Shown here in pieces: positions 12,547-24,667 of a stretch of DNA of 64,000 nt. Each line of letters begins with the position of its first letter. The first letter of the stretch is position 1. The DNA is from Oceanimonas aquatica. GTDB taxonomy: Bacteria; Pseudomonadota; Gammaproteobacteria; Enterobacterales; Aeromonadaceae. The notes beneath the pieces were generated by a model. That model was not told where the DNA came from, did no database searches, and saw only the letters and a program-made list of their open reading frames with translations. The stretch lies in contig NZ_JAVBHX010000006.1 of the NCBI RefSeq assembly GCF_030732065.1, forward strand, positions 62,001 to 126,000, written 5' to 3'. Made by a program: the position numbers and the translations under genes.

Positions 12547-14419
<1,873 letters not shown>

Positions 14420-14423
<4 letters not shown>

Positions 14424-14689
14424 ACGGTCACAAGGAGCTGCGCAAACGGGTGGAACGCCAGGCCAGGCGCATGAAACAGGCCGAACGCGACAAGCCCACC
14501 CTGCTGGGCCAGACCATTTACATGGGTACCCTTGGGCTGCTGATGGCCCTGCCGGTAGTGGCCGGGGCTTTTCTGGGGAACTGGCTCGATGGCCTGGCCG
14601 AGGGCTATTCGGTGCGCTGGACCGTGAGCCTGATCCTGCTGGGCGTGGTGATTGGCGCGGTGAACATTTATCTGTTTATCACAAGGTGA
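14420..14689 (+). CDS. atpQ: N-ATPase small membrane protein AtpQ (AtpI-like)
   Basis: GTG 14420 overlaps the atpC stop. The 89-residue protein has a strongly basic N-terminus (KELRKRVERQARRMKQAERDK) followed by two transmembrane helices (TIYMGTLGLLMALPVVAGAFLG and WTVSLILLGVVIGAVNIYLF), the plan of the F0F1-ATPase gene-1/AtpI family. It is probably an assembly factor or ion channel-like accessory. In most N-ATPase operons an atpR gene follows; here atpB starts five bases after this stop, so there is no room for it. Confidence 0.8.
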
Positions 14690-14693
14690 GTTT

Positions 14694-15374
14694 ATGGCAG
14701 CGAACGAACTTGCCATTGAAACGGTATTTACTCTGGGGCCAATAGCCATTACCGGCACCGTGATCACCACCTGGGTGATTATGGCGGTGCTGGCCCTGGC
14801 TGCCTGGCTGGTCACGCGCCGATTGCGGCTGGAACCCGGGCCGCTGCAAACCGCGCTGGAAGGTGTGGTGTCGGCCATGGAAGCAGCCATTACCGAGGTG
14901 GAGCCCTGGCATTACCGTTATTTACTGCCCTTTGTCGGCACCCTGTGGATCTTTCTGGTGGTGGCCAACCTGTGCAGCCTGATCCCCGGCGTGCATTCGC
15001 CCACCCGGGATCTGTCGGCCACCGCCGCCCTGGCGCTGCTGGTGTTCGTGTTCACCCACTGGGTGGCCATTCGCCTTGGCGGCCTGGGCTATCTGCGCCA
15101 TTACCTGGCCCCCAGCCCGATTTTGCTGCCGTTTCATATCATCAGTGAAATTACCCGCACCCTGGCCCTGGCGGTGCGCCTGTTTGGCAACATGATGAGC
15201 CTGGAAATGGCGGCGCTGCTGATCCTGATGGTGGCCGGCTTTCTGGCGCCGGTGCCGATACTGATGCTGCACGTGATTGAGGCGCTGGTGCAGGCCTATA
15301 TTTTTGGCATGCTGGCGCTGATCTACGTGGCCGGCAGCATTCAGTCCAAACCTTCCTTACACAGCGAGGAGTAG
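14694..15374 (+). CDS. atpB: N-type ATP synthase, a subunit
   Basis: The 226-residue a subunit forms the ion half-channels next to the c ring. The essential Arg is present in TLALAVRLFGNMMS, and the C-terminal helices PILMLHVIEALVQAYIFGMLALIYV are typical. About five membrane helices are visible. TAAGG-like ribosome signals are weak (AAGGTGAGTTT); translation is probably coupled to atpQ. Confidence 0.92.
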   Translation: MAANELAIETVFTLGPIAITGTVITTWVIMAVLALAAWLVTRRLRLEPGPLQTALEGVVSAMEAAITEVEPWHYRYLLPFVGTLWIFLVVANLCSLIPGVHSPTRDLSATAALALLVFVFTHWVAIRLGGLGYLRHYLAPSPILLPFHIISEITRTLALAVRLFGNMMSLEMAALLILMVAGFLAPVPILMLHVIEALVQAYIFGMLALIYVAGSIQSKPSLHSEE

Positions 15375-15647
<273 letters not shown>

Positions 15648-15676
15648 CAGGGCGACAACGAGCAGGAGGCGCGTGC

Positions 15677-16426
15677 ATGGAAGTCAGCTGGAGCACCTTT
15701 GTTCTCGAGATCATCAACTTTCTGGTGCTGGTGTGGATCCTCAAGCACTTTCTCTACCGGCCTGTGCTTGATGTGATTGCCCGTCGCCGCGCCGCCATAG
15801 ACCGCAGCCTGAGCGAGGCTGAAACCATGAAAACCGAGGCCGCCGACATGCGCCGCCAGTATGAGGGTCGGCTGGAAGCCTGGGAGCAGGAGCGCCAGGC
15901 CGCCCGGGAAACCCTGAACAGCGAGATGGAAACCAAACGCCGCGAGGGCCTGCAAAAGCTGGATGCGGAGCTGTCCACCGCCCGCCAGCGGGCCGAGGTT
16001 GCCGATGCCCGGCATCTGGCCGAGGCCGAGCGCAGCATGGAAGTGACCGCCCTGCAGCAGGGCGCCGCCTTTGCCGCCAGGCTGCTGCGCCAGGGCGCCG
16101 GCCCCGACACTCAAAAAAGGCTGGTGCAGTTGCTGATTGACGAACTCGGCAGCCTGCCCGCCAACACAGTGGCTGCCATTCGCCATCAGTACGGCGACAC
16201 CCCAGACGGCGCCGTGATCCACAGTGCCTTTATTCTGGAAGACGAGCAGCGGGCAGCACTGGAGCGGGCACTGCACGAAACCCTGCTGCCTGACGGCACC
16301 GCCCTGCACCATGAGCTGGATTCCTCGCTGCTGGCGGGCGTGCGCATTACCGTGGGCGACTGGCAACTGGGTGCCAATGTGCAGGATGAACTGCGCGGCT
16401 TTGCGGAGCTGGCCCGCCATGAATGA
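15677..16426 (+). CDS. atpF: N-type ATP synthase, b subunit with delta-like C-terminal domain
   Basis: This peripheral stalk subunit of 249 residues is much longer than a normal b (about 156). It starts with one membrane helix ([20 protein letters not shown]) and a long charged coiled coil (about residues 35-130). It ends with a segment resembling the delta subunit C-terminus ([20 protein letters not shown] and [12 protein letters not shown]). No separate atpH exists in the operon, so this fusion probably replaces delta, as known for N-ATPases. Its stop overlaps the atpA start by eight bases. Confidence 0.9.
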
Positions 16427-17897
16427 CAGGCCCGCGCATTCATTATTGGCGCGCCAGGCCCGCTGGCTGCGCCACTACCAGCCCGGACTGCGTGTTAACG
16501 AGCTGGGCCGGGTGGTGTCGGTGGGAGACGGCATTGCCTGGATTACCGGGCTGCCCTCGGCGGCCATTGATGAACTGCTGCTGTTTGCCGACGGCAGCAG
16601 GGGCATGGTGTTCGACATTACCGACAGCATGATAGGCGCCGTGCTGCTGAGTAACACGCCGGAGCTGACCGCCGGCGTTGGGGTGCGTGGCAGTGGCCGG
16701 ACCCTCAGCATGGTAGCAGGCGACGAGTTGCTGGGGCGCATTGTGGACCCATTGGGGGTACCGCTGGACGACAGGCCCCCGCCGGGCAATGCCCGGCGGC
16801 AGCCGCTGGAGCCGCCATCGCCGCCCATTATCGCCCGGGAGTTTGTGCATGAGCCACTGTATACCGGCATCAGGATCATCGACACCATGATCCCCATTGG
16901 CCGGGGCCAGCGCCAGCTGCTGATTGGCGACGAAGGCCTGGGGCGCAGCTCATTGGCGCTGGATACGGTGATCAATCAGCGGGGGCAGAAGGTGTATTGC
17001 GTGTATGTGCTGATCGGCCAGAAGCGTTCCACCGTGGTGAACACCATCGAGATTTTGCGCTCACAGGGCGCCCTCGACTACACGGTGGTGGTGGTGGCCG
17101 AGGCCAGCGCCTTGCCCGGGCTGCAACACCTGGCGCCCTTTGCCGGCTGCGCCCTGGCCGAATTCTGGATGCAGCAGGGGCGGGATGTGCTGGTGGTGTA
17201 TGACGATCTCTCCAGCCACGCCAAAACCTACCGGGAGCTGTCGTTGCTGCTGCGCCGGCCGCCGGGGCGGGAAGCCTTTCCGGGCGATATTTTCTCGGTA
17301 CATGCCCGGCTGCTGGAGCGGGCCACCTGCCTGAACGCCGCCTATGGCGGGGGAAGCATTACGGCGCTACCGATCATTGAAACCCACCTTGGCGAAATTG
17401 CCGCCTACATTCCCACCAATCTGATCTCCATTACCGACGGCCAAGTGTACCTGGACCACACCCTGTTTGCCGGCGGCTTTCGCCCGGCCATCGACATTGG
17501 TCGTTCGGTGTCTCGTATTGGCGGTCAGGCCCAGCATGCCTGCATCAAGCAGGAAGCCGGACGCATGAAGCTGGACTACCTGCAGTTTATGGAGCTGGAA
17601 GTGTTTACCCGTTTTGGCGCGCGGCTGGAGGCCTCGATGGAGGCGGCCATTCACCGTGGGCGGGTGCTCAGGGAAATTCTCAAGCAGGATCGGCTCTCGC
17701 CGCTGCCGGTGGAGGCCCAGATGGCCTGGCTGGTGGCCTTTAACGATGGCGCCTTTGACCACACCGAGCCGGAGCAGGCTCAGAGTCGGCTGGCCACCTT
17801 GTTGCAGGGGGTGGCAAGCAGTGGCCTCACTCTCGACAGCCCCCGCGAACAGTGGCAGGCGGCGGTGAAGGCGGCATTGAGAGAGCCTGACTCATGA
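16419..17897 (+). CDS. atpA: N-type ATP synthase, alpha subunit
   Basis: This is the non-catalytic alpha subunit of 492 residues. The beta-barrel domain contains [17 protein letters not shown], the P-loop region [18 protein letters not shown] lies near residues 161-178, and [10 protein letters not shown] carries the intersubunit Arg finger. The Walker A Lys is replaced by Arg176 (GDEGLGRSS instead of GDRQTGKT), an odd feature that may change nucleotide binding at the non-catalytic site. The longer open frame from 16224 is only the overlap with atpF; the ATG at 16419 fits the family start. Confidence 0.92.
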
Positions 17898-18739
17898 GCC
17901 GGCGCCGGGAGCTGGAGCATCATCGCCACAGCCTGGGGGAGATTCGTGAGATCATGAGCTCCATGAAAACCCTGGCCTACATGGAAACCCGCAAGCTGGC
18001 CCGGCTGATTGAGGCCCAGCAGGCGGTGATCACCAGCATGGCCGGGGCCACCGCCAGGGTGCTGGCCGGCTACCCCGGCGTGCTGCCCAAGGTGGAGCCT
18101 ACCACTTCGGTGATGCTGCTGGTGGGCAGCGAGCGCGGCTTTTGCGGTGACTTTAACCACGCCCTGCTGACGCGGCTTAAATTGCTGCTGGCCGAGCATA
18201 ACGGCGAGCCGCCCCGGCTGATGGCCATGGGGCACAAACTGAATATGCTGCTGGAGCAGGAGCGGTACGACTGCCTTTGCCTCGACGGTGCCAGCACCGC
18301 CGATGAAATTCCCGCCTCGCTGGCGCGGCTGGTCACCGAGCTGACCGGCCTTGAGCAAGAGGGCGTGCTGGCCCTGCATGCCCTGTATCACAACGCCGAC
18401 GGTGAGCTGGTGCAAACACAGCTGCTACCGCCCTTTACCGACATGACGCCGGCCGGCAGTAACGTATTGCCGCCGGTGATTAACCTGCCTGCCGCCGCCC
18501 TGCTGGCCAACCTCTCGGAGCACTACCTGTTTGCCCTGCTGCACGGCATGCTCTATGGCTCGCTCTATGCCGAAAACCACCAGCGCGTAACCCACATGGA
18601 AGGGGCGGTAACTCACCTGGACGAAGAAGCCGAACGGCTGAACCAGCGCTTTAACGCCCTGCGCCAGGAAGAGATCACCGAAGAAATAGAAGTGATCCTG
18701 CTGAACGCCACCAATCTGGAAGGGGGCAGTCACCTTTAA
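17894..18739 (+). CDS. atpG: N-type ATP synthase, gamma subunit
   Basis: The 281-residue central shaft has long N- and C-terminal helices ([40 protein letters not shown]) and the conserved [15 protein letters not shown] strand-turn. It is last in the operon and overlaps atpA by four bases. The divergence from household gamma subunits is typical of N-ATPases. No T-rich terminator follows; palindromic repeats begin within 30 bases. Confidence 0.9.
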
Positions 18740-18990: not shown

Positions 18991-19464
18991 CAGGCACCGC
19001 TGTTGCGTGAGATGAGCCCCAAACTGGCAGAACGCACCGCAATTAACCCTTTTTACAATTGAAACGACTCACCACTACGGCCAAAATGGACTCTTTCAGC
19101 TCTGTAGTTGCAGGGAATGACGGCCTGTAACGTTCGGGCGGTAGCGTGGCTGTTGGCCTTCAAGGTGAGCCGTTTTATGTATGTTTAGCCAGTTATAACT
19201 GCTCATGTGGCATGTTCCGGTCTCACTTTCGCTCATGAACGTCTCGATTGGCAGCCAGCGTGAAAATTAGAGACCTTAAAAATCAGTGAGTTGCAGCCAG
19301 TTCTCGAAAACATTCAGGACTGCAATGCGGAGTTATTGAGACGTCTCGATTTTATGCATGCAAGCAGCGTGCATAAGTCTATTTTATATTTTTAAATCAT
19401 AGGTTTAGTGTTGGTTTCTTGAAGAACTCGGCTGCTGGTTATTTAGCCGGGTCAATATACAAAT

Positions 19465-19471
19465 GTTATGC
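19465..19471 (+). other. Left junction of cassette 1 (R' box)
   Basis: GTTATGC, with the expected crossover between G19465 and T19466. It pairs with the GCATAAC box at the 3' end of the same cassette. The preceding TATACAAAT resembles the A-rich left part of an attI simple site, but this is not enough to call attI. Confidence 0.6.
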
Positions 19472-19482
19472 CCGAAGGTGCT

Positions 19483-20286
19483 ATGAGTAACTATTACGTC
19501 TACGTGTATATTGATCCCAGGAATTTCGAGGAGTTTTACTATGGAAAAGGTAAAGGCTCCCGGAAACATGCTCACCTGAATGACAACTCAGATAGCGAAA
19601 AATCCCGACGCATCAAGGCCATCAAGAAAGAAGGGTTGGAGCCAATCATCAGGGTTATTGCTCGCAATCTATCTGAACACGATGCGCTGCTGGTTGAGAA
19701 AACGCTACTCTGGAAGCTGGGTAAGCAGTTAACGAATATCTCCTCGGGCCACTATGCAGACAATTTTCGTCCGCATGACTCCCTGCATAAATATCTTTCG
19801 GGGTTCGATTTTCAAAATGGGCTGTATTACTACAACGTAGGGGAGGGAGTGCATCGCAACTGGGATGACTATGTTGCCCACGGGTTTATCTCCGCAGGTC
19901 AGGCACCAAGATTCCGGGATGCAATGCTAGGTTTGCAGACGGGGGATTTTGTCGCAGCATATCTTAAGCGCCACGGTTTTGTTGGGGTTGGCCAAATTAC
20001 TCAAAGCGCGCGGCCCGTGCGTGACGTTCTGGTAGGTGGTATCCCACTTTTGCAGAAAGAACTGGTATGCCCAAATATTGGGGAAAACTCGAACGATCTC
20101 GATAAGTCGGAGTATGTTGCACTTGTAGACTGGATTAGGGCTGTCCCGCGAAACGAGGCAAAATGGAAATCAAAGAGTGGGTTGTTTACCTCGCAGCTCA
20201 TCCGAGCCTCGCTGGACGGTCAGCCCGAAACTGTCAAGTTTTTGGAACAGGAGTTTGCCGTTGATTTCGCGGAACTTTTGGCATAA
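19483..20286 (+). CDS. Cassette 1: GIY-YIG nuclease domain with EVE/PUA-like domain
   Basis: The 267-residue protein has an N-terminal GIY-YIG domain of the LEM-3-like type: YVY at 5-7, YYGKG at 19-23, Arg27 and His31 in GSRKHAH, Glu72 in LVEKTLLWKLG and Asn85 in QLTNISSG, so all expected catalytic positions are filled. From about residue 112 a second domain reads like EVE/PUA-type modified-base readers (NVGEGVHRNWDDYVAHGFIS, then LQTGDFVAAYLKRHGFVGVG). A reader plus nuclease would fit a modification-dependent restriction enzyme, but that function is inferred. The start at 19483 has GAAGG upstream; an ATG at 19468 lies inside the attC junction and is less likely. Confidence 0.8.
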   Translation: MSNYYVYVYIDPRNFEEFYYGKGKGSRKHAHLNDNSDSEKSRRIKAIKKEGLEPIIRVIARNLSEHDALLVEKTLLWKLGKQLTNISSGHYADNFRPHDSLHKYLSGFDFQNGLYYYNVGEGVHRNWDDYVAHGFISAGQAPRFRDAMLGLQTGDFVAAYLKRHGFVGVGQITQSARPVRDVLVGGIPLLQKELVCPNIGENSNDLDKSEYVALVDWIRAVPRNEAKWKSKSGLFTSQLIRASLDGQPETVKFLEQEFAVDFAELLA

Positions 20287-20358
20287 CAATCGCCTGCACA
20301 GCGACCGATTTTCCGCCGCTTCGCGGCTCCAAACCGGCGCGTGAGCCGGGCGTTAAGC
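20281..20358 (+). other. attC site 1
   Basis: A 78-bp site runs from GCATAAC (overlapping the stop codon of cassette 1) to GTTAAGC. The centre contains TTCCGCCGCTTCGCGGC, the hairpin tip seen in many attC sites. R'' is the exact complement of the cassette's own left R' box. Confidence 0.85.
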
Positions 20359-20379
20359 ATCTAGGAGTAATGAGCACTA

Positions 20380-20895
20380 ATGAACGAGCAACGGCTCACA
20401 CAGGACTTAATAAATAGGATATCTAATGACTTTGAGATACTTCAGGAAGTTGAAGGATATCATCAACTTTACAATCAAAACGTGAGAATTGATTTGGTCT
20501 TGAGAGCAAAGCAGCATCTTATAGAACAAGGATTTACAAGTGAATGGTTCGGTATTGAATGTAAGTGGGTTCAAGGCGTTATTAAACAAACCTCAAAAAC
20601 CACTAGGCTTGTGTGGCAAAGTATTACTTATGCTCAAGCAGTGTTTAATGTACATGGTAACTGGGAAAAACTAAGGTTTGTTGCTGTATATACGCCACCT
20701 CAGCTTGAGCATTCAATAGAAGAGAATCTAAAAAGGTTACTAGAGGTTGGGCATTACGGCTGTGTTGGTAGGTTTCATTTCTACAAAAGTAACAGTGGCT
20801 GGTGTATTAGGTTTTCTAATGTTTATGCAAGTACAAATGGTGGCTTTCATATTAGCCATAATCAGTTACCAAAGCCCAGAGTTGGAAGTGTATAA
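20380..20895 (+). CDS. Cassette 2: putative PD-(D/E)XK-type nuclease, single domain
   Basis: The 171-residue protein shows a probable PD-(D/E)XK core: Asp38 in NVRIDLVLRA, then the Glu60-Cys-Lys62 triad in WFGIECKW, followed by a helix with Gln and Tyr (WQSITYAQ) as in that superfamily. No DNA-reader domain is apparent. The gene is AT-rich compared with the chromosome. AGGAG lies 12 bases before this ATG; a second ATG at 20370 opens a 15-codon overlapping frame. Assignment rests on motif spacing only. Confidence 0.65.
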   Translation: MNEQRLTQDLINRISNDFEILQEVEGYHQLYNQNVRIDLVLRAKQHLIEQGFTSEWFGIECKWVQGVIKQTSKTTRLVWQSITYAQAVFNVHGNWEKLRFVAVYTPPQLEHSIEENLKRLLEVGHYGCVGRFHFYKSNSGWCIRFSNVYASTNGGFHISHNQLPKPRVGSV

Positions 20896-20897
20896 GT

Positions 20898-20992
20898 GCT
20901 TAACAAGTCAAAGCACGCGGACTTGGTAAAGCTGTTACCTTTTTTCAAAAAAAGTAGCCTACTTCACCAATCCGGTGTTTGAGGCGTTATAA
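20898..20992 (+). other. attC site 2
   Basis: A 95-bp site runs from GCTTAAC to GTTATAA. R'' is the exact complement of the left R' box of cassette 2 (GTTAAGC). The AAGTCAAAGCACGCGGACTT left arm resembles attC sites of marine gammaproteobacteria. It begins two bases after the stop codon. Confidence 0.85.
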
Positions 20993-21008
20993 ATTATAAG
21001 GAGAGTAA

Positions 21009-21425
21009 ATGAGTTCCGTACACTATTTTGATTGCGAAGGACCAGATGTGCGGGCGATCGCTCTCGCGCTGAAGTTGGCGGCGGATTTAGCGACGAAAGG
21101 AACGAAAGAAATAACCATATTTTTACCTACTCTGCAGCAAGCCAAAGGTACGGTGCTTACAGACGTTATTGGCTTGGAAGCAGCCAAAAAGCTTTCGAAA
21201 GGCCAGCTTTACAAACTTGGAGGAGCGACTGTAAAAATGGTATCCGATAGAACTTACAGCGAATATGGATCCAATGGTGTTGTCGTTGCTCTGTGGCCAT
21301 CAACGAATATGAGAAAAAAGTTAGAGCGCCCATCTTACGAGGCATTGGTTATAGTGCCTTGGCTAAAAGAAGAAAATTATGACTGGGCTGAAAAGAGAGG
21401 AGCAAAAGTATTGTCGGTAGCGTAG
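21009..21425 (+). CDS. Cassette 3: unknown 138-residue alpha/beta protein
   Basis: I do not recognise the family. The chain alternates helices and strands: VHYFDCEG, a helix with AIALALKLAADLATKG, strand EITIFLP, a helix-rich centre (LEAAKKLSKGQLYKLGG), strand GVVVALWP and EALVIVPWL near the end. This suggests a Rossmann-like or similar soluble fold. No signal peptide or membrane helix is seen. It has an AAGGAG ribosome site five bases upstream and sits between two attC sites. Confidence 0.75.
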   Translation: MSSVHYFDCEGPDVRAIALALKLAADLATKGTKEITIFLPTLQQAKGTVLTDVIGLEAAKKLSKGQLYKLGGATVKMVSDRTYSEYGSNGVVVALWPSTNMRKKLERPSYEALVIVPWLKEENYDWAEKRGAKVLSVA

Positions 21426-21428
21426 AAT

Positions 21429-21548
21429 TCATAACTAGGCGTTGCAGCGGACCCCTTGCACACCGCTTGCTTTTGCGCAATTCGCTACGCTCATTTTATT
21501 GCGAAAAACCAAGATCCATTCCAGGGGGCGCTGAACTTGGCGTTATAC
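21429..21548 (+). other. attC site 3
   Basis: A 120-bp site runs from TCATAAC to GTTATAC, with CTAGGCGTTGCAGCGG in the left arm. R'' differs by one base from the complement of the cassette's left box (TTATAAC expected). It is the longest of the four sites. Confidence 0.8.
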
Positions 21549-21566
21549 AAAGTGAGAAATTAGAGA

Positions 21567-22427
21567 ATGGATCAAATATTCAATAATAGGGAAGTTGCAG
21601 TTTCGATTTGGGCTGGGTTACTTTTCATTTTTGGAATCTCTAAAGCAGGTGTTAGAGATGCAGCTAAGAATGTAGTTATTGCATTCTTTCATCCCAAAAT
21701 AGTATCCACTTTTTTATTCATGGGAATTTATACTTGGGGAGTTGTTAAGCTTTTACAAATTATTGATCTGTGGAATTTTGTTCAACTAAAGAATACTATT
21801 TTCTGGTTTATTTTCGTGGGAGTAGCAGAAATTTTCAAGGCTACTTCTGCACAAGGGAAAGAACATTATTTTAAAAACTCACTAAAGAGCCACTTTAAGA
21901 TATTAGTGATTTTAGAGTTTGTGGTCGCTTTCCAAAGCTTTAGCCTAATAGCTGAAATATTTATCGTTCCTATATCTGCATTTTTAGGCGCTCTTCTTGC
22001 GGTTTCTCAAAGTAAGGAGGAGTTTGAGCCTGTTGAAAAGATAATATCTTGGCTGCTTTCAATTTTTGGGATCATTTTTATTCTTTATGGTTGCTACTAT
22101 ATGTCAACCCATCTAGATAAGTTCTTACAAATAAAAACAATATTGGATTTTCTAACTCCAATATTGCTTTCTATATTCCTTCTACCATTCGTCTACGTCT
22201 TGTCTGTCTATATTCTATATGAGCGTATTCTGATACGTATTAATATTTATACAAGCAACAAAAAGAATCGCCTATTTGGTAAAGTAATGGCGCTAATACA
22301 CTTTAATCGAGATCATAAAAGCTTAGAAAAATGGCTAGCTTATTCGTGTATGGATGATTTTAGAACTAAGAAGTCGATAGAAGAATCGATAAAGAGTTTC
22401 AATCAATTAGATGAGAAAATGGTATAA
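21567..22427 (+). CDS. Cassette 4: AT-rich polytopic membrane protein of unknown function
   Basis: The 286-residue protein has about five or six hydrophobic segments (WAGLLFIFGIS, VSTFLFMGIYTWGVV, NTIFWFIFVGVAEIF, FIVPISAFLGALLA, ISWLLSIFGIIFILYG, FLTPILLSIFLLPFVYVLSV). A charged cytoplasmic C-terminus of about 60 residues follows (KNRLFGKV to the end). The start NNREVAVSIW with later VRDAAK recalls a widespread uncharacterised membrane family, but I cannot name it. Codon use is strongly AT-biased, unlike everything around it. No strong ribosome site is present (TTAGAGA). Confidence 0.75.
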   Translation: MDQIFNNREVAVSIWAGLLFIFGISKAGVRDAAKNVVIAFFHPKIVSTFLFMGIYTWGVVKLLQIIDLWNFVQLKNTIFWFIFVGVAEIFKATSAQGKEHYFKNSLKSHFKILVILEFVVAFQSFSLIAEIFIVPISAFLGALLAVSQSKEEFEPVEKIISWLLSIFGIIFILYGCYYMSTHLDKFLQIKTILDFLTPILLSIFLLPFVYVLSVYILYERILIRINIYTSNKKNRLFGKVMALIHFNRDHKSLEKWLAYSCMDDFRTKKSIEESIKSFNQLDEKMV

Positions 22428-22524
22428 CAAGGCGCTGCAACCGCCAGCCAAACTGTCACTCGTTTTGCCAAAAGACCGGCAAAACCAGCGCTATTTTTGT
22501 CTGCGGCTGAGCGCGGCGTTAAGG
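22422..22524 (+). other. attC site 4
   Basis: A 103-bp site runs from GTATAAC (overlapping the stop codon) to GTTAAGG. It has complementary arms around GGCGCTGCAACCGCC and GGCTGAGCGCGGC. R'' is the exact complement of the left box of cassette 4. Confidence 0.85.
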
Positions 22525-22541
22525 CAAAAGGAGGTTGACCG

Positions 22542-22949
22542 ATGAGCACTTCGGCTCAGGTACTTGGACTCTTCATCGCTTGGGCGCTTCTTCTTGTCGT
22601 GCTCATGGAGGCAAGTCGCTGTTATTTCCTTATCAAAGGTCGCATTCGTTCCAATGAGTTCAAGCCGGACAATTCAAACTTACCCCCCTTCATGCAGCGG
22701 CTGGCCAGAGCACACGCGAACTGCATTGAAGGCCTTCCTATTTTCGGTGGGCTGCTAATCCTGGCAATCGTGACCGGCCAAACCGGGATCACGGACGCCT
22801 TGGCACCATGGTTCTTGCTCGCGCGAGTGGCGCAGTCAAGTCTCCATGTCGCCTCGTTGAGCGTGGCCGCGGTAAATGCCAGGTTTGCCACCTTTGTCGT
22901 GCAAGTGAGCATCGCGGTCTATTGGGCATGGTCACTCATCCTAAACTAA
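22542..22949 (+). CDS. Cassette 5: MAPEG-family membrane protein
   Basis: The 135-residue protein has about four membrane helices and the MAPEG (eicosanoid/glutathione metabolism) pattern: a long first helix, then FMQRLARAHANCIEGLPIFG, with the family's RxxxNHxExxP-like motif present as RAHANCIEGLP. It ends in a C-terminal AVYWAWSLIL helix. MAPEG proteins bind lipophilic substrates or glutathione; the substrate here is unknown. A strong AAGGAGG ribosome site lies seven bases upstream. Composition is nearer to the chromosome than cassettes 2-4. Confidence 0.85.
   Translation: MSTSAQVLGLFIAWALLLVVLMEASRCYFLIKGRIRSNEFKPDNSNLPPFMQRLARAHANCIEGLPIFGGLLILAIVTGQTGITDALAPWFLLARVAQSSLHVASLSVAAVNARFATFVVQVSIAVYWAWSLILN
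22940..22946 (+). other. Probable degenerate R'' box at the right end of the array
   Basis: CCTAAAC overlaps the stop of cassette 5 and differs by one base from CCTTAAC, the complement expected from its left R' box. No matching R' box is found downstream, so the last attC is probably truncated or decayed. Confidence 0.45.
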
Positions 22950-22964
22950 ATCGTGCGTTCACGG

Positions 22965-22996
22965 ATGGTGCCCTGACAAGCGTAACAGGGCACCAT
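22965..22996. other. 11-bp perfect hairpin after the cassette array
   Basis: ATGGTGCCCTG and CAGGGCACCAT are separated by ten bases. No T-run follows, so it is not a typical intrinsic terminator. It may stabilise the transcript end or be part of a broken recombination site. Confidence 0.55.
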
Positions 22997-23113
22997 ACCG
23001 GCTGATCTGGATTCAAAGATGAAAGCCTGCCTACCGCTGGAAACGATTAACCTGAAGCCGGATCCGTCAGAGCTATAATCGACAGACATTTGCATGGAAA
23101 GGGAGGGCGTCAC

Positions 23114-24667
23114 ATGGCCACCAATACCGCATCAAACCAGTTTGATGCCATTGTGATCGGCTCCGGCATGGGCGGCATGACCACAGCCGCGGCGCTTTCC
23201 CGCCTGGATCACCGAGTGTTGCTGCTTGAGCAGGCTCAGGACATTGGCGGGCTGACCCACGCTTTCAGCCGAAATGGTTTCACCTGGGATGTGGGCCTGC
23301 ACTATTGCGGCACCTTTGGCCACGATCAGCGTGCCGGCAAAATCCTCGACTGGCTCAGTGGTGGCACCATTGAGTTTCACTCGGTCGGCACCGTCTACGA
23401 CACCCTGCATTTTCCCGATGGCTTTGAGATCGCCGTGGGCCGCCCGGCGGCCGCCTACAAGATGGAGCTGAAAGAATGCTTTCCCGATAATGCCGCCGAA
23501 ATAGAGGCCTACTTTGAGGCGCTGCTGTCGGCGGAAGAGGCTGCGCACATGGTGGCGGCCGAGCGGGCCATGCCCGAGCCATTTCGTTCCGCCCATCACT
23601 GGTGGAACCAAAACAAAATTCAGCGCTGGTGCAGCCGCACCACGGGTGAAGTGATTGACGAGTACATCAGCAACCCTCAGCTGGCCGCCGTGTTGTCGGC
23701 CCAGTGGGGCACCTATGGTGGCAAACCCACGGAGGCGAGTTTTGCCATTCATGCCACCATCATGGGCCACTACCTCGACGGCGCAGCCTATCCGGTTGGC
23801 GGGGCCGCGGCCATTGCCGAGGGCCTGGTGCCGGCTATTAAAGCGGCGGGAGGCCGTGCCCAAGCCGGCACCGCGGTGGACGAGATAATGCTTGAAGACG
23901 GCAAGGCCGTGGGTGTGCGCACCCACTCCGGTGAGGAATTCAGGGCGCCCTGTATCGTGTCGGCCATCGGCGCCGCTGAAACCGTGAAGCACCTGCTGCC
24001 AAAGGCAGTTCGCGAGCAGGACTGGGCACGGGAGATAGCGACATTCAGGCCGTCGCTCTGCCACTTTGATCTGTATCTTGGCTTTGAGGGGGACATCAGC
24101 CAGCACGGGGCCACGCGCTCAAACCACTGGTTTTATCAAAGCTGGAACACCAATAACGCCATCTGGAGTGGGACGGACGTCGAGCCCATTGCCATGATGT
24201 TTGTGTCGTTTTCGTCGCTCAAGGATCCCGCCCATGATCCCGGGCCGGCGAACAAGCACTGCGGCGATATGCTGGTCTGGGCCGACTGGTCGTTGGTAGC
24301 CGGGTTTGCAAATGGCGGAGCCGAGCAGCGGCCCGAAGAGTGGGCCTCGTTCAAACAGGGTATTGAGTCGATCATGCTGGATGCCTTCAGGCAGCAGTTT
24401 CCGGATCTGGCGCCGCTGATTGCCTACCATGAGCTGGGCACGCCGCTGGCCACCGTTGCCTTTACCGGCCATGAGCAGGGCGGCTTTTATGGCGTTGAAA
24501 CCACGCCGCGGCGCATGTTGTCGAGCGCCCTTAACGCCCGCACCCCGGTGCCCGGTTTGTTTCTGTCCGGTCAGGATGTGATGACGCCGGGCATTGCCGG
24601 CGCCCTGACCGGCGGTATACTGGGGGCGGCGGCCATCGATCCGCGGGTATTTCAGAAACTTAAATAA
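23114..24667 (+). CDS. FAD-dependent oxidoreductase, RetSat/CrtISO-like
   Basis: The 517-residue protein starts with the dinucleotide-binding motif VIGSGMGGMTTAAALSRL and a following LLLEQAQDIGGLTHAF, as in phytoene desaturases, carotenoid isomerases and retinol saturases. The C-terminus has the second FAD motif PGLFLSGQDVMTPGIAGALT. Similar bacterial enzymes act on polyene or lipid substrates, but the substrate here is unknown. Translation is best started at ATG 23114 with GGGAGGG upstream; a TTG at 23090 would add eight residues. It stands alone after the cassette array. Confidence 0.85.
   Translation: MATNTASNQFDAIVIGSGMGGMTTAAALSRLDHRVLLLEQAQDIGGLTHAFSRNGFTWDVGLHYCGTFGHDQRAGKILDWLSGGTIEFHSVGTVYDTLHFPDGFEIAVGRPAAAYKMELKECFPDNAAEIEAYFEALLSAEEAAHMVAAERAMPEPFRSAHHWWNQNKIQRWCSRTTGEVIDEYISNPQLAAVLSAQWGTYGGKPTEASFAIHATIMGHYLDGAAYPVGGAAAIAEGLVPAIKAAGGRAQAGTAVDEIMLEDGKAVGVRTHSGEEFRAPCIVSAIGAAETVKHLLPKAVREQDWAREIATFRPSLCHFDLYLGFEGDISQHGATRSNHWFYQSWNTNNAIWSGTDVEPIAMMFVSFSSLKDPAHDPGPANKHCGDMLVWADWSLVAGFANGGAEQRPEEWASFKQGIESIMLDAFRQQFPDLAPLIAYHELGTPLATVAFTGHEQGGFYGVETTPRRMLSSALNARTPVPGLFLSGQDVMTPGIAGALTGGILGAAAIDPRVFQKLK

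Follow-up and report, generated by a model that had tools for sequence, protein, structure and literature searches.

An integrase-less cassette array of Oceanimonas aquatica as the probable remains of a chromosomal integron

Introduction

How does an array of gene cassettes come to stand in a chromosome with no integrase gene beside it? The question is raised by a 64,000-nucleotide stretch of Oceanimonas aquatica DNA (hereafter the window), in which an earlier note had described a detached integron cassette array, five genes separated by four attC sites without a neighbouring integrase gene, intI. The origin of such clusters of attC sites lacking integron-integrases (CALINs) is unsettled: integrons may have decayed into them, or cassettes may have been inserted away from any integron. 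Judged from sequence comparison with relatives, the array is very probably what remains of a chromosomal integron whose intI was deleted almost exactly, with the insertion site attI and the cassettes left in place.

Results

A covariance model was trained on 18 attC sites from other arrays of the genus, the window sequence being excluded. Its consensus fold comprises the two attC stems and an unpaired base, and nine of its 13 pairs show changes on both sides within this outside set. Applied to both strands of the window with default filters and E up to 10, the model matched at four places only, all on the plus strand: attC 1 (20281-20358; 78 bp, 56.6 bits, E 2.1e-12), attC 2 (20898-20992; 95 bp, 36.7 bits), attC 3 (21429-21548; 120 bp, 33.0 bits) and attC 4, the last of the array (22422-22524; 103 bp, 37.6 bits, E 2.3e-7). 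The four sites of the earlier note were thus recovered, each in its place and with nothing else. All four match model positions 1-72 and show the R and L stems, an R'' box ending in AAC, an R' box starting with GTT and a variable middle. With filters off over 19300-24000 the next-best score was 8.9 bits (E 0.66), and no credible attC was found there downstream of the fifth gene. Loose regular expressions for the boxes, tried both here and on another contig of this genome (C18), returned almost nothing or mostly chance matches, and the covariance model was used in their place. The window had no match in Rfam at gathering scores, a result that carries no information on attC. A sedentary superintegron of the Vibrio type was dropped as a description, since the attC sites are few and unlike one another.

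Because a cassette is inserted as a circle, its R'' box should be the complement of the 5' edge of that cassette. Each R'' box was compared with its own edge, which for cassette 1 is the attI edge. The pairs (edge / R'') are GTTATGC / GCATAAC, GTTAAGC / GCTTAAC, GTTATAA / TCATAAC and GTTATAC / GTATAAC; of the four variable letters in each pair, one is mismatched in the third pair and none in the others. Here, too, the earlier note, which had counted three exact pairs and one with a single mismatch, proved right: own pairing leaves one mismatch in 16 variable letters and is the best of the 24 possible orders, the other 23 giving 3-7. The comparison was extended to a genus set of 51 attC sites, the four of the window and 47 model matches (E 0.01, some of them model members) over 36 loci; a preceding edge lay within 2.6 kb in 46. 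The R'' box matched its own edge exactly at 37 of these 46 sites, as against four of 46 when compared within the same attC site, and mean mismatches were 0.33 and 1.93, respectively, a result reached by none of 20,000 shuffles. The 46-site comparison is not blind, because some of the outside sites had first been picked by the own-edge rule; the four sites of the window are blind.

Cassette 1 is preceded by about 430 bp of non-coding DNA, and here the earlier note overlooked an attI leader at 19050-19467. The segment 19020-19475 (456 bp) finds matches in 15 of 75 family genomes, its own included, all from Zobellella/Oceanimonas, and falls into two modules, one at about 19050-19147 (module A) and one at about 19227-19468, which stops at GTT. 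Module A (19050-19147, plus strand) is a conserved flank of ~100 bp with 29 copies in the genus, and among the 75 family genomes it is confined to Zobellella/Oceanimonas. In intI-bearing platforms it lies at the 3' end of intI, and it is kept in platforms without intI. In the window its last twelve letters, 19136-19147, are GGGCGGTAGCGT; their complement encodes TLPP, the final four residues of the type-2 IntI in genome G022, which terminates in ...SPLDTLPP. At that G022 locus (L104, contig C1) an intact intI separates module A from the leader; in the window this place is taken by a scar, 19148-19176, where intI (~1 kb, minus strand) would be missing. Beyond it follows the sequence ATG-N10-CAG (19177-19192). 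The intI-bearing platforms of C18 and G022 carry CTG-N10-CAG, which we take to be a LexA-like box, at 281 and 286 bp before attI, respectively; the box in the window lies at nearly the same distance and is one letter off. Among 17 intI-less platforms the box is kept in five, one letter off in six (the window and contig C5 of G003, O. baumannii ATCC 700832, included) and absent from that place in six.

The leader proper (19193-19449, plus strand), with conserved blocks at 19229-19255 and 19331-19350, runs into an attI core of type 2, GGTCAATATACAAATG^TT (19450-19467, plus strand), with the crossover between 19465 and 19466. Homology to relatives breaks off at GTT or a few bases from it. A search for the core with up to three mismatches gave 12 contexts. 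Eleven are attI2 sites followed by differing DNA; the remaining one, with three mismatches, was set aside as a chance match. All ten other type-2 sites have leaders homologous to this one, and both its homology to G022 and the position of the crossover place a putative attI beside the first cassette. In a scan of 84,980 species the type-2 core pattern occurred in 17 stretches, ten from Zobellella/Oceanimonas and seven from unrelated taxa, the latter being about the number expected by chance (about seven by our own estimate).

The window platform has no IntI match and is accordingly not a complete integron, which has intI adjacent. The window's genome (G000) is a draft of 24 contigs, the window lying on C21. 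Its sole match above the family cut-off is a full-length intI at C18:187795-188733 (405.6 bits); five further IntI matches fall below it. The array indeed lacks a neighbouring integrase, and the earlier statement that there is none holds for the window but not for the genome. The word "detached" fits the missing neighbour only: the array still sits in an attI with its leader, and what has gone is the intI between leader and module A.

Stages of such a loss are found at other loci. At nine of the 11 attI2 loci no IntI match was found in the fetched surroundings; in G022 intI is intact, and in G006 (Z. endophytica 59N8, L092) it is spread over two frames. Both belong to one group of module-A copies with similar left flanks and type-2 attI throughout (G022C1, G006C1_2), together with G004C148_2 (Z. 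denitrificans ZD1) and G007C27_2 (Z. iuensis CGMCC 1.18722), which have no intI. O. baumannii C5 aligns across the scar of the window with single-base gaps only. We conclude that the window contains an integron platform from which intI was deleted between 19147 and 19177.

Platforms of this kind recur throughout the genus. The type-1 attI of C18 ends in ATGCTCACTATTAAAATG^TT. Exact copies number 25, in 14 of 23 genus genomes and in none of 52 other family genomes; the reversed pattern gave none. An IntI match was present in the fetched locus at five of the 25 (module A to attI 1073-1324 bp), one of which, G001 C3, has a stop in intI and scores below the family cut-off. The other 20 had none; module A lies at 97-528 bp in 16 of them and was not found in four (L151, L154, L155, L156). 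This ratio covers exact sites only: mismatched type-1 sites occur both beside intI (L106, L110 and L113, the last with a stop) and without it (G017C17, G015C23). By left flank, the 29 module-A copies form 13 groups, an approximate figure that falls to about 11 after manual merging: the window pair and the G005C7 set share one interval (EF-G to LysE, see below), the flank of G004C30 measures only 231 bp, and a second clustering assigns G003C67 and G018C1a, each a group of its own in the first, to the C18-type locus. This second clustering yielded 18 groups, but copies known to come from one locus were separated in it.

An attI-type core follows module A in 23 of the 29 copies, GTT being damaged in two (G008C39, G007C27_2). 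Six copies are without a core: G017C12, G015C44, the first copies of G004C148 and G006C1, G010C1 and, at a contig end where intI abuts module A, G003C7. By eye, G015C44 and G006C1 have cassette-like edges, and G004 C30 seems to retain the start of intI; directly behind module A of G005 C7, tBLASTn gives a weak match to the IntI N-terminus (E 0.064). At L062 (G008 C39) the attI1 core is broken at GTT and is followed by a gene that we take for an IS110-type one. On C1 of the window's genome, 1.5 kb separate module A from attI2 (L087 4333-5882), with an open reading frame of 212 aa and no IntI match.

The window locus was followed in relatives, with one genome per species. The DNA up to one gene and from another onward, presumably EF-G and LysE, is present in order at L049, L052, L053 and L055 and partly at L051. 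The interval between them is variable and under 90 bp in G013; in G005 and G018 it holds module A, a type-1 attI and cassettes with no IntI match, platforms with which G017 C17 clusters by left flank. Between EF-G and the platform of the window lies what we take to be an N-ATPase-like operon (12613-18739). Its last gene has a close relative (80%) in O. baumannii only, beside the same platform, and weak matches of at most 36% in six other genus genomes. On C5 of O. baumannii the same scar between module A and attI2 lies beside the same N-ATPase genes, with a different first cassette. At the end of C11, the contig of this genome with LysE, there are more cassettes. One of them, presumably csaA-like, shares 84% identity along 373 bp (G^TT through R'') with the first cassette at the C18 station, the one that has intI. 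Both contigs end in DNA that looks IS3-like to us, and probably join. If intI was lost before the two species split, the cassettes changed afterwards, perhaps by an integrase acting in trans. The alternative that the earlier note had named, a row of cassettes conserved in order, is not what relatives hold: O. baumannii has other cassettes at the corresponding place, and none of 74 other family genomes yielded a cassette gene. The latter search used 19466-22945 as a DNA query, with up to four candidates per genome scored, and returned pieces of attC: of attC 1 at 84-97% in G004, G016, G006 and G014, with shorter or weaker ones in G006 C3 and G022; of attC 2 in G007 (two places, 88%) and G002 (82%); and of attC 4 at 88% in G031.

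All cassettes lie on the plus strand. Cassette 1 (19466-20352) carries a gene (19468-20286) for a GIY-YIG protein (PF22945, 1.3e-9) similar to the candidate phage-defence families PDC-S11 (2.4e-33) and PD-T4-3 (5.5e-14) of a defence library. The products of cassette 2 (20353-20986; gene 20380-20895), cassette 3 (20987-21542; gene 21009-21425) and cassette 4 (21543-22518; gene 21567-22427, membrane-protein-like by eye) matched no family in Pfam, NCBIfam or PADLOC. The GC fractions of the four genes are 0.49, 0.38, 0.45 and 0.33, as against 0.60 for the window. The fifth gene (22542-22949, plus strand) encodes a MAPEG-family protein. The array of five genes thus stands as far as five same-strand genes and four attC spacers go, but the fifth has no attC at its 3' end and the array proper consists of four cassettes. 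With a GC fraction of 0.55 the gene lies between cassettes and host genes, and may or may not be a cassette. Relatives at E 1e-15 occur in 16 of 394 genomes sampled in the order, its own included; over 11 of their loci the attC model matched once (23.6 bits), on the upstream side of the gene, where a cassette would have its attC downstream. The protein is unmatched in 22 genus mates, as is the product of a carotenoid isomerase/desaturase-like gene at 23114-24667. Because 22530-23110 as DNA, and the MAPEG and desaturase products as proteins, each match their own genome only (one of 23), the right border of the array cannot be set by synteny. A mobile integron on a transposon or plasmid would be marked by flanking transposition genes or repeats. 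By eye, no transposase was noticed among the open reading frames of the window, where no systematic search was made; DNA that we take to be IS3-like interrupts the O. baumannii array and that on C1 of the window's genome.

Genome-wide, G000 holds at least seven attC sites, four in the window, one on C1 and two on C18; this count is a lower bound because the best 150 of 1392 candidates were scored, and a separate scan of C18 added one further site. A lone attC-like match (C18:325201-325274, 26.9 bits) lies distant from the C18 integron.

Discussion

In the reading that we prefer, the ancestral order would have been module A, intI on the minus strand, the LexA-like box and leader, attI and the cassettes. 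Comparison with relatives suggests that intI then went almost exactly and that attI and the cassettes stayed. The cassettes would have been inserted as circles by an IntI at G^TT of attI, the newest beside attI, as box complementarity and established integron biology imply, and their genes may be read from a putative promoter in the leader. A promoter scan found four sites, as against 6.8 in shuffles, and no Pc can be named. Since the loss, the site could have been served only by an IntI made elsewhere. The reading is supported by the four attC sites of an independent model, by own-edge complementarity from the attI edge on, by leader homologues with differing DNA beyond GTT, by the intact, broken and missing intI at the G022C1 locus, by the retained coding end and by the near match to the LexA-like box. 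Mean pairwise identity among nine intI-less type-2 copies fits as well: it is 0.85 in the attI core and 0.80 and 0.73 in two leader blocks, but 0.55-0.57 between them, 0.33 just before and 0.31 past GTT.

Several observations weigh against this reading. No credible IntI remnant was found in the window by tBLASTn, so the case for a deletion depends on the flanking modules and twelve bases of the intI coding end. Module A might also be an element in its own right, next to which intI has settled; at C18 the type-1 intI does not reach into module A, a diverged copy of which follows just behind the stop codon. Within the leader, a hairpin with a T-rich tail (19351-19377) resembles a terminator, odd between leader and cassettes. 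The identity profile is drawn from intI-less copies only, with same-locus pairs included. Finally, in a tree of 28 type-1 leaders (30 loci were tried, one without a match and one too short) the eight intI-bearing leaders, counting those with a broken intI, form a clade (89/91). Its sister clade (99/98) consists of seven intI-less leaders that belong to several left-flank groups; long branches drew warnings. The tree is compatible both with platforms that spread without intI and with repeated separate losses, and does not decide between them.

What happened at the site after the deletion is less clear. An IntI made elsewhere, here on C18, may still load or reshuffle it, one integrase serving several attI stations, and we give this slightly less than an even chance. 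The window's genome has four stations, C18 with intI and C12, C21 (the window) and C1 without, which speaks for such service; yet its only full IntI adjoins a type-1 attI and the attI of the window is of type 2, and G018 has three intI-less attI sites with no intI at E 1e-40. The different first cassette beside the same scar in O. baumannii and its cassette shared with the C18 station speak for it as well, although a longer ancestral array could have lost different cassettes in the two species, and C5 and C11 are separate contigs, joined here by inference in a single genome of the species. Within type-2 leaders that lack intI, conservation is highest in the attI core, which also favours service in trans.

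Alternatively, the array has been a frozen fossil, merely decaying since intI was lost, which we consider a real contender but lean somewhat against. The decayed LexA-like box would fit, as would the proposal that CALINs are degraded integrons (PMC9024848) and, in Xanthomonas, the stable arrays that accompany intI loss (PMC12444791). Decay alone sits poorly with exact box pairs in three of four cassettes and with another first cassette behind the same scar in O. baumannii.

A wider version of trans service is offered more tentatively, and we would bet against it: in Zobellella/Oceanimonas, one intI might serve non-autonomous stations of module A and attI across the chromosome, and intI-less stations might themselves multiply. 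It draws on the five intI-bearing sites among 25 of attI1, on the sister clade of intI-less leaders and on the four stations of G000.

That a remote IntI inserted the cassettes at attG, a target outside integrons, is highly improbable: such insertions are known (Loot 2024, as mentioned in PMC12444791 and PMC12901181) and a remote intI exists on C18, but the left side is a conserved attI leader common to intI-bearing platforms and not a random target. Least of all do we credit an assembly break with intI on a missing piece, or accidental repeats, as the array, though from a 24-contig draft, lies about 81 kb inside C21 with module A and attI contiguous, and the model matches and box-pair statistics exclude chance.

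The array belongs to the CALIN class of IntegronFinder, which takes two or more attC sites in the absence of a neighbouring intI. Unlike a plain CALIN, it keeps an attI with leader and the 3' flank of intI. IntegronFinder does not detect attI outside class 1 (PMC9024848), and such platforms would be filed as plain CALINs. The ilvD integrons and CALINs of Xanthomonas likewise combine repeated inactivation of intI with retained arrays, and CALINs occur there at seven further loci, with intI elsewhere in some genomes (PMC12444791). In what was available of that paper there is one ilvD platform and attI leaders are not reported at the other loci, whereas the platforms described here recur in roughly ten or more left-flank groups (after manual merging). 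Shewanella resembles our case in its scattered attC clusters (CALINs and single attC sites lacking integron-integrases, SALINs), in genomes with and without intI, but differs in that the available text reports no attI at them (PMC9229058). Delta-attI cassettes of class 1 and 2 integrons also carry attI sequence apart from intI (PMC12901181); there, pieces mostly of 14-18 bp, some longer, replace attC at the cassette 3' end, whereas the window has a whole platform at the 5' end of the array. CALINs, their origin from inactivated integrons and mobilization in trans have been published (PMC12444791, PMC9024848, PMC9229058).

Our literature search, which left most subscription papers outside its scope, found no treatment of Oceanimonas integrons by title or abstract start and no paper with both "Zobellella" and "integron"; Oceanimonas serves as an outgroup in PMC10609294, as far as that source was available. 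Nothing fitting was among the matches listed for orphan or solo attI, multiple integrons, CALINs served in trans or dispersed arrays. In the literature searched, CALINs and the loss of intI are known, and the genus-wide set of integrase-less attI platforms is new.

The origin of a CALIN can be read here because attI, the flank of intI and, at one locus, stages of intI loss are visible, and a search that ignores attI outside class 1 would miss such platforms. The many integrase-less docking stations of the genus suggest that one integrase elsewhere may serve several of them. If they are indeed supplied in this way, an integron can extend beyond a single locus, and cassettes could reach several expression sites through one integrase with LexA-like regulation.

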